Shown: piece by piece, positions 12,876 through 25,875 of the stretch
Numbering within the stretch: the stretch's first letter is position 1
How the letters are laid out: every line of letters starts with the position of its first letter
IMG/VR virus record: IMGVR_UViG_3300044623_000244
Location: 1-34,742 of that record
Strand: one strand, 5' to 3'
Source of the DNA: a virus
DNA length: 34,742 nt
The notes under the pieces: generated by a model
Told to the model about the DNA's origin: nothing
The model's input: the letters and a program-made list of their open reading frames with translations, nothing else
The model's database searches: none
Made by a program: the position numbers and the translations under genes

Positions 12876-13255
12876 GTTTAGAGAAACAACCACATGGAGG
12901 ATTTTTAAATAGATACGAGAAAGGCGCAGCATGGAAAGGTAATAGGAATGGCAGACCTAGAAAGTACATAACTGAATTAGCCCCACACGGTTACAAGAAT
13001 GCTCAAGTAATGGATTGCATTCAGGTATTAATGGCAATGACAGTTGATGAACTGAAAGCGGTATGGGATAATAAAGAAAGCACGATATTAGAAAAGACTT
13101 TAGCAAATGCATTAATTAAGTCAATGGCTAAAGGTTCTTTGTATTCAGTAGATACTTTATTGAGCAGGGTTTACGGTAAGCCAAAAGAAACAACGGCAGT
13201 AATACAGGACAGTAAAATAGAAGTAGTATTTGTAAAGGGTAAAACTATTCTATGA
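12872..13255 (+). CDS. terS: Terminase small subunit candidate
   Basis: 127 aa. The N-terminal GGFLNRYEKGAAWKGNRNGRP motif followed by basic RKYITELAPHGY and a helical body (TVDELKAVWDNKESTILEKT) match small phage proteins directly upstream of large terminase subunits. The small subunit selects the DNA for packaging. The stop overlaps the large subunit start by four bases (ATGA). No clear HTH is visible, so the call leans on position and the GRP/K-rich start. Confidence 0.7.
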   Translation: MSLEKQPHGGFLNRYEKGAAWKGNRNGRPRKYITELAPHGYKNAQVMDCIQVLMAMTVDELKAVWDNKESTILEKTLANALIKSMAKGSLYSVDTLLSRVYGKPKETTAVIQDSKIEVVFVKGKTIL

Positions 13256-14406
13256 TTTTAGAACTACCTGAAGCGCATACAAATCAATTAAAAATCTTAC
13301 AATCAAAAGCAAGGTTTAGAGTTGTAATGTGTGGGCGAAGATTTGGTAAGTCTGAATTATCACAGGTTGAAATTATTAGCAATGCAATACAAGGGATGAA
13401 TGTTGCCTACATTACACCGACCTATAAACTAGCAAAAACATTCTTTGAGAAACTAACACAAAGCCTACCATTTGAAAACAACAAAAGCGATTTAACTATT
13501 CATTTTCCCAATTCGGGAACTGTTGAATTTTTTACAGGTGAAAGACTAGATAACCTAAGAGGCAGAAAATTTCATTTAGTAGTTATAGATGAAGCCAGCT
13601 TTATACCTAACTTAGAAGATGGATGGCTAAATTCAATCAGACCTACCTTAACCGATTATCAAGGTAGGGCATTATTCCTATCTACTCCACGAGGCAAAAA
13701 CTATTTTTATTCTCTTTACATGAAAGGCGGGCAAAGAGATTGGGAAAGTTTTAAATTTACCACTTATGATAATCCTTATATTTTAACATCCGAGATTAAC
13801 GATGCAAAAGCACAATTGCCATCAGTTGTATTTGAGCAAGAATACATGGCTAACCCTATGGAAAATGCAGCCAATCCATTTGGTAGTGAACACATTGCAA
13901 AGTGTACCTGTAATTTAAGTTACAATGAACCCATGTACTTTGGTATTGATTTGGCAAAGTCTGTGGATTGGACTGTTATAATTGGATTAGATAGTGATGG
14001 TAAAGTAAGTTACTATGAACGTTTCCAAAAGGATTGGTTACAAACAAAAGAAACAATTAGACAGATAAGAAAGCATAAACATATATTTATTGATTCTACT
14101 GGAGTAGGTGATGCAATTGTAGAGGACTTACAAAAGCATTTCAACGATATGACAGGGTTTAAATATACATCAACCAGCAAACAACAATTAATGGAAAGCC
14201 TTGCATCATCAATTCATAAAGCCGAGATAGGATTCCCCGAAGGAACAATAAAAGATGAATTAGAAATATTTGAATACTTATTTACATCGACAGGGGTAAG
14301 GTATTCTGCACCTTCAGGATTCCATGATGACTGTGTTAATGCGCTTGCCCTAGCCAATAAATGCCGTATAGAAAACAAGGGAAGCGGACAATATCATTAC
14401 ATTTAA
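13252..14406 (+). CDS. terL: Terminase large subunit
   Basis: 384 aa, on the short side for TerL. The ATPase part has Walker A CGRRFGKS (27-34), Walker B LVVIDEAS (109-116) and coupling motif LFLSTPRG (141-148). The nuclease part has GIDLAKSVDWT with Asp233, FIDSTGVGD with Asp281 and GFHDDCVNALAL with Asp359/Asp360. It cuts and pumps DNA into the prohead. Together with the small subunit it starts the late gene block. The missing N-terminal extension is normal for compact phage terminases. Confidence 0.95.
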   Translation: MILELPEAHTNQLKILQSKARFRVVMCGRRFGKSELSQVEIISNAIQGMNVAYITPTYKLAKTFFEKLTQSLPFENNKSDLTIHFPNSGTVEFFTGERLDNLRGRKFHLVVIDEASFIPNLEDGWLNSIRPTLTDYQGRALFLSTPRGKNYFYSLYMKGGQRDWESFKFTTYDNPYILTSEINDAKAQLPSVVFEQEYMANPMENAANPFGSEHIAKCTCNLSYNEPMYFGIDLAKSVDWTVIIGLDSDGKVSYYERFQKDWLQTKETIRQIRKHKHIFIDSTGVGDAIVEDLQKHFNDMTGFKYTSTSKQQLMESLASSIHKAEIGFPEGTIKDELEIFEYLFTSTGVRYSAPSGFHDDCVNALALANKCRIENKGSGQYHYI

Positions 14407-14438: not shown

Positions 14439-15086
14439 ATGACAATTAAGCAATTTCAAGAGTTGTACTATGTGGCTACTTCTACCGATGTTGACCTAGA
14501 CAAGTCGATTAAGATGGTTGGGATAGTAACAAATAAAACACCAGAACAGGTGGAAGCGATGTCAATGATTCGCTTTAATTTACTTTGTGCAAGGGTACAT
14601 AATGAGTTTAAATTATTTGAAAGAGATTTATTAAAAACCAAACCAAAGAAAATAGTAAGGGTAGGAAAGCGCTTTTATAAAATTAATTACGATGTAGCAA
14701 AAGCAAAGGCATCAACCTATGTTGAAGTTGCAACCTTTAGCACTGATATTATTCAGAACTTACATAAGGTAATGGCTTCAATAGTTACACCAGTTAGATT
14801 TAAATGGCTTAAATGGGTTGAAGTAGAGCATGAAGATTTATCAAAGGAAATGGAATCAATGGATTTCGAAGCTGCTTACCATGCAGCGGTTTTTTTTTAC
14901 ACTCTATTCAATGTATCAATGCAAGTTATCCAGCCTTATTTGATAAACGAAATGACAGCGAAGGGGATAGCAAAGGAGAAAGCGACGGAGGTATTGACGA
15001 TTTCACAAAACATTTTGGATGGCTTTACAATGCCAAGATGGTCGCAGACTTCGAGGGAATACCTTTACAATCGGTTTGGGATTTAA
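14439..15086 (+). CDS. Tail assembly chaperone, zero-frame product
   Basis: 215 aa from ATG 14439 (MTIKQFQELYY). An upstream ATG at 14361 would overlap the terminase and add unlikely sequence. Typical elements: DKSIKMVGIVTNKTPEQVEA, KKIVRVGKRFYKINYDVAK and YHAAVFFYTLFNVSMQ. After about 14955 the zero frame shows unusual codons (tcg, acg, agg, cag), while the -1 frame carries a convincing C-terminal domain (see the frameshift entry). The short zero-frame form would correspond to the gpG-like product. Located just after terminase and before tail genes. Confidence 0.65.
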   Translation: MTIKQFQELYYVATSTDVDLDKSIKMVGIVTNKTPEQVEAMSMIRFNLLCARVHNEFKLFERDLLKTKPKKIVRVGKRFYKINYDVAKAKASTYVEVATFSTDIIQNLHKVMASIVTPVRFKWLKWVEVEHEDLSKEMESMDFEAAYHAAVFFYTLFNVSMQVIQPYLINEMTAKGIAKEKATEVLTISQNILDGFTMPRWSQTSREYLYNRFGI

Positions 15087-15169
15087 AAGTAATACATTTT
15101 TTAAATGATTTACTTTATTTAAAATTAAAGCAGGACAAAGAAAATGAGCATAACAAAAAGTCAAGCTAG
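14439..15169 (+). CDS. Tail assembly chaperone, extended -1 frameshift product
   Basis: Reading 14439-14897, slipping back one base on the T9 run (14890-14898; GTT TTT TTT) and continuing from 14897 to TAG 15167-15169 gives 243 aa. The -1 part contains an acidic linker (DSEGDSKGESDGGIDD), then FTKHFGWLYNAKMVADFEGI and VWDLKVIHFLNDLLYLKLKQ, which resembles the C-terminal domain of tail assembly chaperones in related phages and uses the normal codon style of this genome. Programmed -1 shifts of this kind make gpGT-type proteins that load the tape measure. A homopolymer sequencing error (T10) would give the same fusion. Confidence 0.7.
14890..14898 (+). promoter_or_regulatory. Slippery T9 site for -1 frameshift
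   Basis: In the zero frame this reads GTT TTT TTT TAC, a canonical X XXY YYZ heptamer (T TTT TTT). The -1 frame is open from before this point (last -1 stop near 14834) to 15169. No strong downstream hairpin was found by eye. Confidence 0.65.
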
Positions 15170-22955: not shown

Positions 22956-23474
22956 ATGGCTTGTGCAATCGTAAGCGGATATACAATAGACTGTCGGGAA
23001 TCCGTTGGAGGAATTGACGCAGTATTTTTCGCAGAATTTGGAAACGTAACAATAGCCGATGCTAGTGGTATTGTTACAGGAATTACAAAAGCAGTTGGTA
23101 AAAAATTCTTTAAGTTTGAAATACCTACTAAATCAAGTGCAGTTGCTGCAAGCAATCCTACTGGTTCTATTGAGAATGGTACTTTGTTTTTTGAACAAAC
23201 TTTAGATTTCCCTATTAATAAAAGAGATGCTACTACAAGGAATATTATTACTACTTTAAGTAAAAATAAAATTGTTGCGGTTACACTTGATAAAGATGGC
23301 ACTTACAGAATGTATGGTAAGCAATTCGGAATGTATTTAGCTGCAAGCACAGGAACAAGTGGTGCTGCTGCTGCTGATGCACAAGGTTATATGCTTAAAT
23401 TTGAAGCAAGTGAAAGGGAAGATTTCTTTGAAGTTACAAACGCACTAGGTTTGCTTTTAACTACTGCTGGATAA
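22956..23474 (+). CDS. Major tail (tube) protein candidate
   Basis: 172 aa. ACAIVSGYTIDCRESVGGID, GTLFFEQTLDFPINKRDATT and KFEASEREDFFEV resemble major tail tube proteins of Bacteroidota siphoviruses (start with CxIVxGxxxxCRxxxGGI). Codon use suggests high expression, like the capsid gene. It sits between two strong hairpins, giving its own mRNA segment. Odd: it lies next to head genes, far from tape measure and chaperone. Confidence 0.65.
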   Translation: MACAIVSGYTIDCRESVGGIDAVFFAEFGNVTIADASGIVTGITKAVGKKFFKFEIPTKSSAVAASNPTGSIENGTLFFEQTLDFPINKRDATTRNIITTLSKNKIVAVTLDKDGTYRMYGKQFGMYLAASTGTSGAAAADAQGYMLKFEASEREDFFEVTNALGLLLTTAG

Positions 23475-23528: not shown

Positions 23529-23897
23529 ATGATAAATTTAACAAAAGGACTTACCGAAACAATTTATTTCACAGGTACTGAAAAGGCTACTATTGCAAAC
23601 CCTTTTTTTTTATTTGTGTTTATCCACAGGGTTACCCTTGATGTTGTTAAGTTAATGGCAACAAATCAGAGTATAACTGGTAGATACGATAGTTTTGCAT
23701 TTACGGTTAATAACTTTTTTGATTTAAAGGAGGAGGGATTTTATAGTTATAAAATTTATCAAAAAGTATTGGTAACTGATTTCACAGTAGCAGGAGTAGT
23801 GGTTGAGGAAGGGTTTATGTATCTTAATCCATCAACTGCATTTGAACCAACTAAATACGAAGAACAAAACAATAATTTCGTTACTTATGAATTATAA
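23529..23897 (+). CDS. Conserved phage structural-region protein, 122 aa
   Basis: MINLTKGLTETIYFTGTEKA, PFFLFVFIHRVTLDVVK and the C-terminal YEEQNNNFVTYEL recur in Bacteroidota phages next to portal genes. It is beta-rich. It starts two bases after the terminator, so either the terminator leaks or a promoter overlaps it. A T9 run at 23603-23611 lies within it but the frame continues normally. Function unknown; probably a head or connector component. Confidence 0.65.
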   Translation: MINLTKGLTETIYFTGTEKATIANPFFLFVFIHRVTLDVVKLMATNQSITGRYDSFAFTVNNFFDLKEEGFYSYKIYQKVLVTDFTVAGVVVEEGFMYLNPSTAFEPTKYEEQNNNFVTYEL

Positions 23898-25875
23898 TAA
23901 TATTATCACAGTTAAATTCGCACAAGCGGAGCAACCTAGATTTGAAGAAAAGAAAGGTAAAGGGTATATTGAATTTGGGATTAATAACAATTATCCTGAT
24001 TACCTTATAGGACTGTATAACGAAAGTCCTAAACATGGTGCTATTATTAAGAGTAAAACTAATTACATATTCGGTCAGGGTTGGGATGGTATTCAACAGA
24101 AGGCAAATACTAAAGGTGAAACCTGGAATCAAGTTACAAAGAAATGTATTTTGGACGATGAACTTTTCGGTGGTTATTATTTACAAGTTATTTATAATTT
24201 ATTAGGCGAGATTAAAGATGTGTATCACCTTGAATATCATAAAGTTAGAATCAATAAAGAAAAGAATGAATTTCAAGTAAAAAATGATTGGTCAGATAAT
24301 AAAGAAACACCGAGATTATATCCTGCTTTTAACATTGCTGACCCTGTTGCAAGTCAAATTTTATTTGTAAAACAATATAATCCTAAATCAGATTACTATC
24401 CTTTACCTAATTATTATCAGGGATTAAATTATATTGAAAGTGATGTACAAGTAAGCAGGCATATTTTAGGAAATGCAAAAGATGGTTTTGTTGCTACAAC
24501 TTTAATTAACTTAAATGGCGGTGAACCAGCAGAGGAAGCAAAAGAAGCGGTTGAAAGAGGAATAAAAAAGAAATTCACAGGCAGCGAAGGGGATAGAGTT
24601 GTAATAATGTTTAACAAATCGAAAGATAATAGTGCTGAAATATTGCCATTATCTTCTACGATGTTAACAAAGGAAGATTTTACGAATGTTAACAATTTAA
24701 TTCAGCAAGAAATATTTGCCTGCCATCAGGTTACTTCACCGAGTTTATTCGGGATTAAGACAGAAGGGCAGCTTGGCGGTTCAACCGAGATTAGAGATGC
24801 TTATAAAATATTTGCAAATACTTATGTAAACGAAAGGCAGCAAGCAATTGAGGAAGTATTTAATCAGTTGTTTAATTATGTAGGTATTGAGGGAGATTAT
24901 GAATTAATACCAGTTGAGCCGTTAAGTTTTGAATTTAGCGAAAGTGTAATGGCTGCTAATATGACTAGGGATGAAATAAGGGAGAAATTAGGTTTGGCTT
25001 CGGAGGTTGTTGTTAATCCTACTTTAAATCCTTTAACTAATCCTACCGAGCAGCCTATTGCAGCATCAAATGATAGTATCAAAAACCTTACAGGAAGGCA
25101 ATATCAAAATGTGATGAGAATTGTTAGGCAGTTTACCAATGGAAAACTTACTAAAGAACAGGCTGCATTGATGTTAAAGAATGGATTTGCTTTTACTGAT
25201 TCCGATGTTAATACTTTTCTAGGTTTAGACGCAGACCCTGCTACATTTTCTAGTGATGACAACGAAATGGAGTTGGTAGAAATGTTTGAAAAGTTTAGTG
25301 ATGATTTAAGCGATTATGAAGTATTAAGCGAAAAACCTGCAAATACCTTTAATCACTTTGCAGAGAATAAGCAATTGAGCCAATTAGAGGCTGATATTTT
25401 AGGCTATCTCAACAAGGATAAGAGAATTACAAGCGAAGTACTTTCACAGGTCTTAAAACAGGATATAAAGGTCATTGATGCAACTTTAAAAAGTTTAATT
25501 GATAATAAGATTATTGATGTTAAAGAAGTAAAGGTAGGTCAAGATACTATCATAGAAAGAACAAGGACAAGCATTAAGGCTGATGTACCTAAACCTAGTC
25601 CATTGGTGTTACAGATTGGTTATACTTATGCATGGAGAAGCATTGTACCAAGTTCAGAAAGAAATACACCAGCGCACCCATCACGTATATTTTGTGTTAA
25701 AATGATGGAACTTGCAACAACTAAATTATGGTCAAGGGCAAGGATTGAGCAAATGAGTGTTGCGCTTGGATATTCGGTATTTGATAGGGTTGGAGGGTTT
25801 TGGAATAATGACGGAGTAATAGATACACAATGCAGACATGAATGGAAGGCTTTAATAATTCAAAAGAAAAAATAA
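23887..25875 (+). CDS. Portal protein with C-terminal winged-helix and minor-head-like region
   Basis: 662 aa from ATG 23887; the in-frame ATG at 23803 only re-reads the previous gene. Portal part: YIEFGINNNYPDYLIGLYNE, GAIIKSKTNYIFGQG and FACHQVTSPSLFGI with GGSTEIRDAYKIFANTYVNE (about 1-375). Then a winged-helix-like segment (LEADILGYLNKDKRI, about 527-541) and a C-terminal region with TYAWRS, PSRIFCVKMMELATTKLWSR, GYSVFDRVGGFWNN and CRHEWK that resembles minor head (MuF-like) proteins. It forms the DNA gate of the head; the tail may enter the capsid. Confidence 0.8.
   Translation: MNYNNIITVKFAQAEQPRFEEKKGKGYIEFGINNNYPDYLIGLYNESPKHGAIIKSKTNYIFGQGWDGIQQKANTKGETWNQVTKKCILDDELFGGYYLQVIYNLLGEIKDVYHLEYHKVRINKEKNEFQVKNDWSDNKETPRLYPAFNIADPVASQILFVKQYNPKSDYYPLPNYYQGLNYIESDVQVSRHILGNAKDGFVATTLINLNGGEPAEEAKEAVERGIKKKFTGSEGDRVVIMFNKSKDNSAEILPLSSTMLTKEDFTNVNNLIQQEIFACHQVTSPSLFGIKTEGQLGGSTEIRDAYKIFANTYVNERQQAIEEVFNQLFNYVGIEGDYELIPVEPLSFEFSESVMAANMTRDEIREKLGLASEVVVNPTLNPLTNPTEQPIAASNDSIKNLTGRQYQNVMRIVRQFTNGKLTKEQAALMLKNGFAFTDSDVNTFLGLDADPATFSSDDNEMELVEMFEKFSDDLSDYEVLSEKPANTFNHFAENKQLSQLEADILGYLNKDKRITSEVLSQVLKQDIKVIDATLKSLIDNKIIDVKEVKVGQDTIIERTRTSIKADVPKPSPLVLQIGYTYAWRSIVPSSERNTPAHPSRIFCVKMMELATTKLWSRARIEQMSVALGYSVFDRVGGFWNNDGVIDTQCRHEWKALIIQKKK

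Follow-up and report, generated by a model that had tools for sequence, protein, structure and literature searches.

In a family of uncultured tailed phages, a gene directly following the large terminase gene very probably makes a tail assembly chaperone in two forms from one start codon, through slippage at a run of nine T residues (T9). The gene was studied in the window, i.e., the whole 34,742 bp stretch of a viral record that was analysed (Table 1). Standard decoding would result in a 215-aa form. Slippage at T9 would shift a fraction of the products into the -1 frame and give a 243-aa form, in which the same N-domain would be followed by an acidic flexible linker and a helical domain marked by the residues FGW. 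Lambda gpG/gpGT suggest by analogy what the parts would do: the N-domain shared by both forms would form a coat on the tape measure protein, and the less abundant long form would bring in the major tail protein through its -1 domain. We infer the production of both products, their ratio and the chaperone role. The family is large, and in the aligned loci the T9 run is preserved even though the sequence around it in the gene varies.

Table 1. Features around the T9 run, with positions in the window; BLASTP E-values against Nonlabens phage P12024S are from single comparisons.
Feature	Position	Strand	Remarks
Terminase large subunit	13252-14406	+	Directly upstream; phrog_2 E 5e-48; Terminase_6N/6C
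Zero-frame product, 215 aa	14439-15086	+	N-domain plus zero-frame C-terminus; short, G-like form; probable tail assembly chaperone
N-domain, 153 aa	14439-14897	+	Common to both predicted products
T9 slippage site	14890-14898	+	Reads GTT TTT TTT TAC (14889-14900) in the zero frame
Canonical heptamer T_TTT_TTT	14891-14897	+	Within T9; expected slip point for a ribosome
-1 extension, 90 codons (TTA CAC ...) to TAG 15167-15169	14897-15169	+	Predicted long, GT-like form
Dual-coded overlap, about 62 codons in both frames	14899-15083	+	Drop in synonymous divergence
Next gene, 212 aa	15144-15782	+	Probably neck/HK97-gp10-like, from its position; overlaps the end of the -1 extension
Tail-module protein, 382 aa	15779-16927	+	Homologue of P12024S gp44, BLASTP E 5e-7
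Tail-module protein, 676 aa	16924-18954	+	Homologue of P12024S gp45, BLASTP E 2e-4
Putative tape measure protein, 543 aa	18956-20587	+	From its features; homologue of P12024S gp49, BLASTP E 2e-10; phrog_21917 E 5.5e-8

Two conserved reading frames and a run of fixed length

A sequence-only reading of the window had claimed that the gene at 14439 contains GTT TTT TTT TAC, that the -1 frame is open from the T9 run onward to give a spliced product of 243 aa, and that this frame follows the codon style of the genome; all of this was borne out. The zero frame starts at ATG 14439 and ends with the stop at 15084-15086; relatives keep this ATG (MTIKQFQ...) as the start and not the earlier in-frame ATG at 14361. 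In the -1 frame no stop interrupts the stretch between 14834 and TAG 15167-15169; the 150 codons upstream of T9 contain 20 stops in this frame and the 90 codons downstream contain none. When the codons were resampled with the zero-frame protein held fixed, the -1 frame remained open over the overlap in 1 of 10,000 draws (P = 1e-4). The spliced long form consists of a 153-aa N-part and 90 aa from the -1 frame, which encode an acidic, G/S-rich linker and then the helical FGW...FLNDLLYLK domain. Codon preference in the zero frame falls past T9 from 0.223 to 0.023 bits per codon and GC3 changes from 0.30 to 0.49, whereas the -1 frame is closer to the codon usage of the phage (0.189 bits per codon, and 0.312 past the zero-frame stop).

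The same reading held that the zero frame drifts into rare codons after the run. The rare codons are real but there is no drift, as the zero frame encodes a second, conserved C-terminus from the dual-coded DNA and its product is conserved at full length in relatives to about 30% identity. Zero-frame synonymous divergence is 0.51 upstream of T9 but 0.24 in the overlap, with nonsynonymous divergence at 0.08 in both parts, and this halving of synonymous divergence argues that both frames are coding. In a close group of sequences dN/dS over the overlap is 0.31 for the zero frame, 0.73 for the -1 frame and 1.00 for the +1 control; in a wider group of five the values are 0.53, 0.70 and 0.70, respectively, and the contrast between frames is weak there. 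Past the zero-frame stop, where the -1 frame alone codes, its codons have a pS of 0.38 and a pN of 0.04. Counted from the GTT codon to its end the zero-frame tail is 39-69 codons long in the surveyed relatives, the shortest of which may be cut by a contig end. The rare codons in the zero frame reflect a double constraint and not decay, and the comparisons show that both frames and the T9 run are, as judged from the alignments, under selection. Nearly all relatives conserve the zero frame past T9, where the same DNA also codes in the -1 frame; the gene is therefore predicted to make two alternative C-termini rather than one complete and one shortened form.

The 29 viral loci recovered by an initial protein search all carry T9 in the same phase, and in each of them neither frame is interrupted over the available length of contig. 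Wider searches were made with alignments of either frame, the zero frame reaching to about 30% identity, and with a DNA pattern. Relatives of the -1 domain are encoded in 391 stretches, of which the best 80 were kept, and in the profile-based surveys, which were not conditioned on a T run, T9 was present in a -1-compatible phase at nearly every locus. A later count, in which a T run was required, comprised 80 distinct contexts from viral contigs after removal of duplicates; 78 have T9 in the same phase and two have T10. These contexts form 31 clusters at 70% identity and 13 at 50%, and at the 70% level 29/31 clusters have T9 and 2/31 have T10. The sequence-only reading had allowed that the run might turn out to be T10 or T7, or that the -1 domain might lack homologues; neither occurred, as the T9 count stands at 78 of 80 and the domain has hundreds of relatives. 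With local codon use, the probability of finding GTT TTT TTT for VFF is 0.19 per lineage, or about 2e-23 over 31 lineages if these were independent, a figure that is overstated because of shared ancestry.

Elsewhere in these phages long runs are rare. Across the loci of 22 relatives, T runs of at least seven and, less strongly, A runs of at least eight are well below Markov expectation: T8 was seen twice against 28 expected and T10 or longer was seen 0 times against about 5 expected, while 22 of the 24 T9 runs are at the slip site described here. Given this deficit of T8 and T10+ and the concentration of T9 at one site, it is concluded that long T runs are purged nearly everywhere except at the slip site. 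No relatives were confirmed in 84,980 bacterial and archaeal genomes, and direct tblastn with either frame of the window matched no isolated phage.

Departures from T9 can be read in the light of the two frames. At locus L076 a T10 run is created by substitution of TAC to TTC, which leaves both frames unchanged. At L075 (844-1584), owing to the T10 run, the N-domain continues directly into the -1 domain to form a single protein of 247 aa; the alternative frame there closes after 8 codons, and the zero-frame tail has been lost. L075 is, as predicted from its open reading frame, a natural in-frame fusion of the two domains, and the N-domain and the -1 domain are shown, at the level of the predicted proteins, to belong together. 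The fusion is also seen in L317 and L168 (same contig).

RNA polymerase or ribosome at the T9 run

As the agent of slippage, RNA polymerase and the ribosome are nearly equally likely, with the polymerase slightly favoured. A homopolymer of about nine or more T or A residues that is conserved in length, as is looked for in transcriptional slippage, is present here, and mxiE provides a precedent for slippage at T runs of more than 8 (PMC3711429). It is the exact length of T9, the missing RNA structure, the mxiE precedent and the sequestered anti-Shine-Dalgarno sequence of the likely hosts that cause us to lean towards the polymerase. We accordingly put forward, tentatively and at somewhat less than even confidence, that polymerase slippage at a T9 run selected for its length makes both forms across a large phage group, that the T10 run of L075 exchanges the product that is read directly, with loss of the zero-frame tail, and that both C-termini are functional and come from the same DNA. 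If this is true, the ratio of the two tail chaperone forms becomes a transcriptional property.

It is about as conceivable that the long form instead arises when the ribosome shifts to the -1 frame at T_TTT_TTT, in the manner of lambda gpG/gpGT, a reading to which we likewise give a little under an even chance. The heptamer conforms to X_XXY_YYZ in the right phase, it is retained in L076 despite the T10 run, and the known frameshifts of tail chaperones are described as ribosomal (PMC5009743). On the other hand, no stable structure was found downstream of T9 in seven relatives, where folding did not go beyond that of shuffled sequences (z -0.9 to +1.5), and visual inspection of the alignment upstream showed no Shine-Dalgarno-like motif. 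The likely hosts are Bacteroidia, in which the anti-Shine-Dalgarno sequence is sequestered, and stimulators of the Shine-Dalgarno type would therefore be hampered, although prfB frameshift sites are still common in this group (PMC8710568). Furthermore, conservation extends over all of T9 and thus beyond T7, but a V or L codon before the heptamer, a T-initial codon after it and the -1 Leu could explain the outer T residues. The sequence-only reading had spoken of a programmed frameshift: the conserved frameshift site and the longer second product stand, while a ribosomal mode is not established, as stimulatory RNA structure is missing and T9 fits polymerase slippage too. The fusion in L075 together with the strict length of T9 makes a sharp test of polymerase against ribosome slippage possible.

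The product and its place among the tail genes

The gene product is a probable tail assembly chaperone, an assignment that is well supported but not proven. The name rests on scores of relatives below threshold, on gene order and on an isolated phage. Phage_TAC_7 (PF10109) was matched by 15/29 relatives with a best E of 1.7e-4; the best listed score is 19.8 bits against a curated cut-off of 25, and the singly listed members are all under the cut-off. Similarly, phrog_166 'tail protein' was matched by 17/29 relatives. The claim of the sequence-only reading that this is a tail assembly chaperone is therefore backed by these profiles and by the conserved synteny of the tail module, but not by the window's own protein, which gave no TAC profile match and no useful match in Pfam, PHROGs or NCBIfam. 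The -1 domain, in which 10 residues are invariant among 29 diverse relatives and which follows a linker with a mean net charge of -3.6, had no convincing match in Pfam or PHROGs and no chaperone match in NCBIfam. The AlphaFold2 model of the zero-frame product is mostly helical (mean pLDDT 78) and structurally matches uncharacterised phage proteins, one of them I6R9M9 of Nonlabens phage P12024S; no fold match was found in the PDB. The model of the 243-aa fusion (mean pLDDT 68.6) is a guide only, as its alignment is partly misplaced just after the slip. Flavobacterium phage 6H gp10, a weak fold match, was rejected as a counterpart since it has no T9 and no clear frameshift.

The order TerL, T9 gene, 212-aa, 382-aa, 676-aa and tape measure gene is kept in nearly all relatives, within the DNA that was fetched and for genes that can be detected. 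As had been stated from the sequence alone, the gene lies four genes upstream of the tape measure gene and not directly before it: the genes at 15144, 15779 and 16924 come between, and the arrangement is similar in relatives and in P12024S, where gp42, in a place similar to that of the 212-aa gene, weakly matches HK97-gp10_like. The usual place of the chaperone gene, between the major tail protein and tape measure genes and adjoining the latter, is thus not the one found here. This lowers the chaperone claim without excluding it, as the location is a usual and not a strict feature. It is unlikely that the gene encodes some other tail or neck protein made in two forms: the lack of a TAC match for the window protein and a gene that adjoins terminase instead of tape measure would agree with this, but half of the relatives give weak matches to Phage_TAC_7 and tail-protein profiles, and a shared N-domain with a minor, C-terminally extended product is the known pattern of chaperones.

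Further downstream and well away from the tape measure gene, a probable capsid gene is followed by a 172-aa gene (22956-23474) for a putative major tail protein. A second T9 run is found at 23603-23611 with the phase CCT TTT TTT TTA, inside a 122-aa ORF (23529-23897) before the portal gene; it was rejected as another frameshift site, since both other frames stop within about 17 codons. The portal ORF (23803-25875) was called from TTG 23803, but it more probably begins with an ATG near 23887, where it would overlap the end of the ORF before it.

Nonlabens phages P12024S and P12024L resemble the window in several respects: the gene comes after TerL, its T9 run has the same phase, the -1 frame past the run is open, and the tail genes and the tape measure gene downstream match. 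In P12024S (NC_018271) gp38 directly follows TerL and contains ATA CTT TTT TTT TAT, from which the -1 frame is open through gp39; the two (L169:23136-23830) are annotated as separate hypothetical genes. P12024L has the same T9 and the same genes. These phages differ from the window in that similarity in this gene is distant and confined to the N-domain (hhalign of the window N-domain to gp38, E 2.8e-5, probability 74%), with no detectable similarity of the two -1 domains by hhalign (probability 1.7%), and in that their zero-frame tail past the slip is only about 25 codons. The host of P12024S is a Persicivirga (Nonlabens) strain, a flavobacterium, and the host of the window phage is therefore likely to be found in Bacteroidetes.

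The split annotation raises the question of whether the -1 frame is an independent gene that overlaps the first and has a start codon of its own, as annotated for gp39, and in P12024S an ATG overlapping the gp38 stop (TAATG) would indeed allow coupled translation. This is very improbable for the family, however, as no Met precedes the invariant FGW in any of 77 relatives (GTG and TTG starts are outside that count), conservation in the -1 frame begins right at T9 (L, S, N, YPALF), and the two domains are fused in L075. On this comparison gp38 and gp39 are probably one frameshifted chaperone gene, which appears to have been mis-split into two hypothetical genes in both P12024S and P12024L. Least credible of all, and already refuted by the conserved dual coding, is a sequencing or assembly error that hides a true run of T10 or T8 and one continuous frame: homopolymers are error-prone, L075 has T10 in frame, and L248 has T10 although the sibling locus L247 encodes the same -1 protein with T9 (L248 was set aside for this reason and because its run is at a contig end), but the length is the same in 78/80 contexts and in both isolates, and the zero frame is conserved past T9, which is not expected from a simple indel error.

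Relation to known slippage systems

Two forms made by slippage at one T9 run in a single chaperone gene would add a large unannotated phage family to the class of frameshifted tail chaperones, one whose slip site is a homopolymer and whose dual-coded overlap is unusually long. Such genes tend to escape frame-blind callers as well as predictors in which a close in-frame stop is favoured. Frameshifting tail chaperones are known already, but our search of the open-access literature gave no account of one with a T run or of one that depends on transcriptional slippage. As in Shigella mxiE (T run; PMC3711429) and Thermus dnaX (A9; PMC5009743), a homopolymer of nine or so would give two products from one gene; those are cellular or plasmid genes with experimentally shown slippage, whereas slippage in the window phage is predicted from sequence. 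The overlap from the T run to the zero-frame stop is about 185 nt. In the actinophage set on which PRFect was trained the in-frame stop follows after 26 nt on average, and more than 51 nt was predicted in only 2 of the 43 test genomes, which are those of eukaryotic viruses (PMC10885494).

In lambda, gpG and a minority gpGT are made by -1 ribosomal slippage at a ratio of about 30:1; G is the part that binds the tape measure protein and T the part that binds the major tail protein, and the virion retains neither (PMC5009743). Together with P2 gpE/E+E', Mu gp41 and HK97 gp13/14 (Phage_TAC_7 and related), lambda gpG/gpGT are the closest known systems. Slip sites of the lambda type are mixed slippery heptamers, e.g., GGGAAAG, whereas the site here is a T9 homopolymer. 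Also unlike lambda, the gene in the window has a second conserved C-terminus, encoded by the roughly 62 codons over which the zero frame continues after the slip, no RNA stimulator was detected, and the gene follows terminase, four genes before the tape measure gene. The N-domain is like that of lambda-type chaperones in its weak similarity to Phage_TAC_7, which is seen in relatives. One start, a -1 shift, a shared N-domain and a C-terminally extended minority product are predicted here at the sequence level just as they are known for lambda gpG/gpGT.
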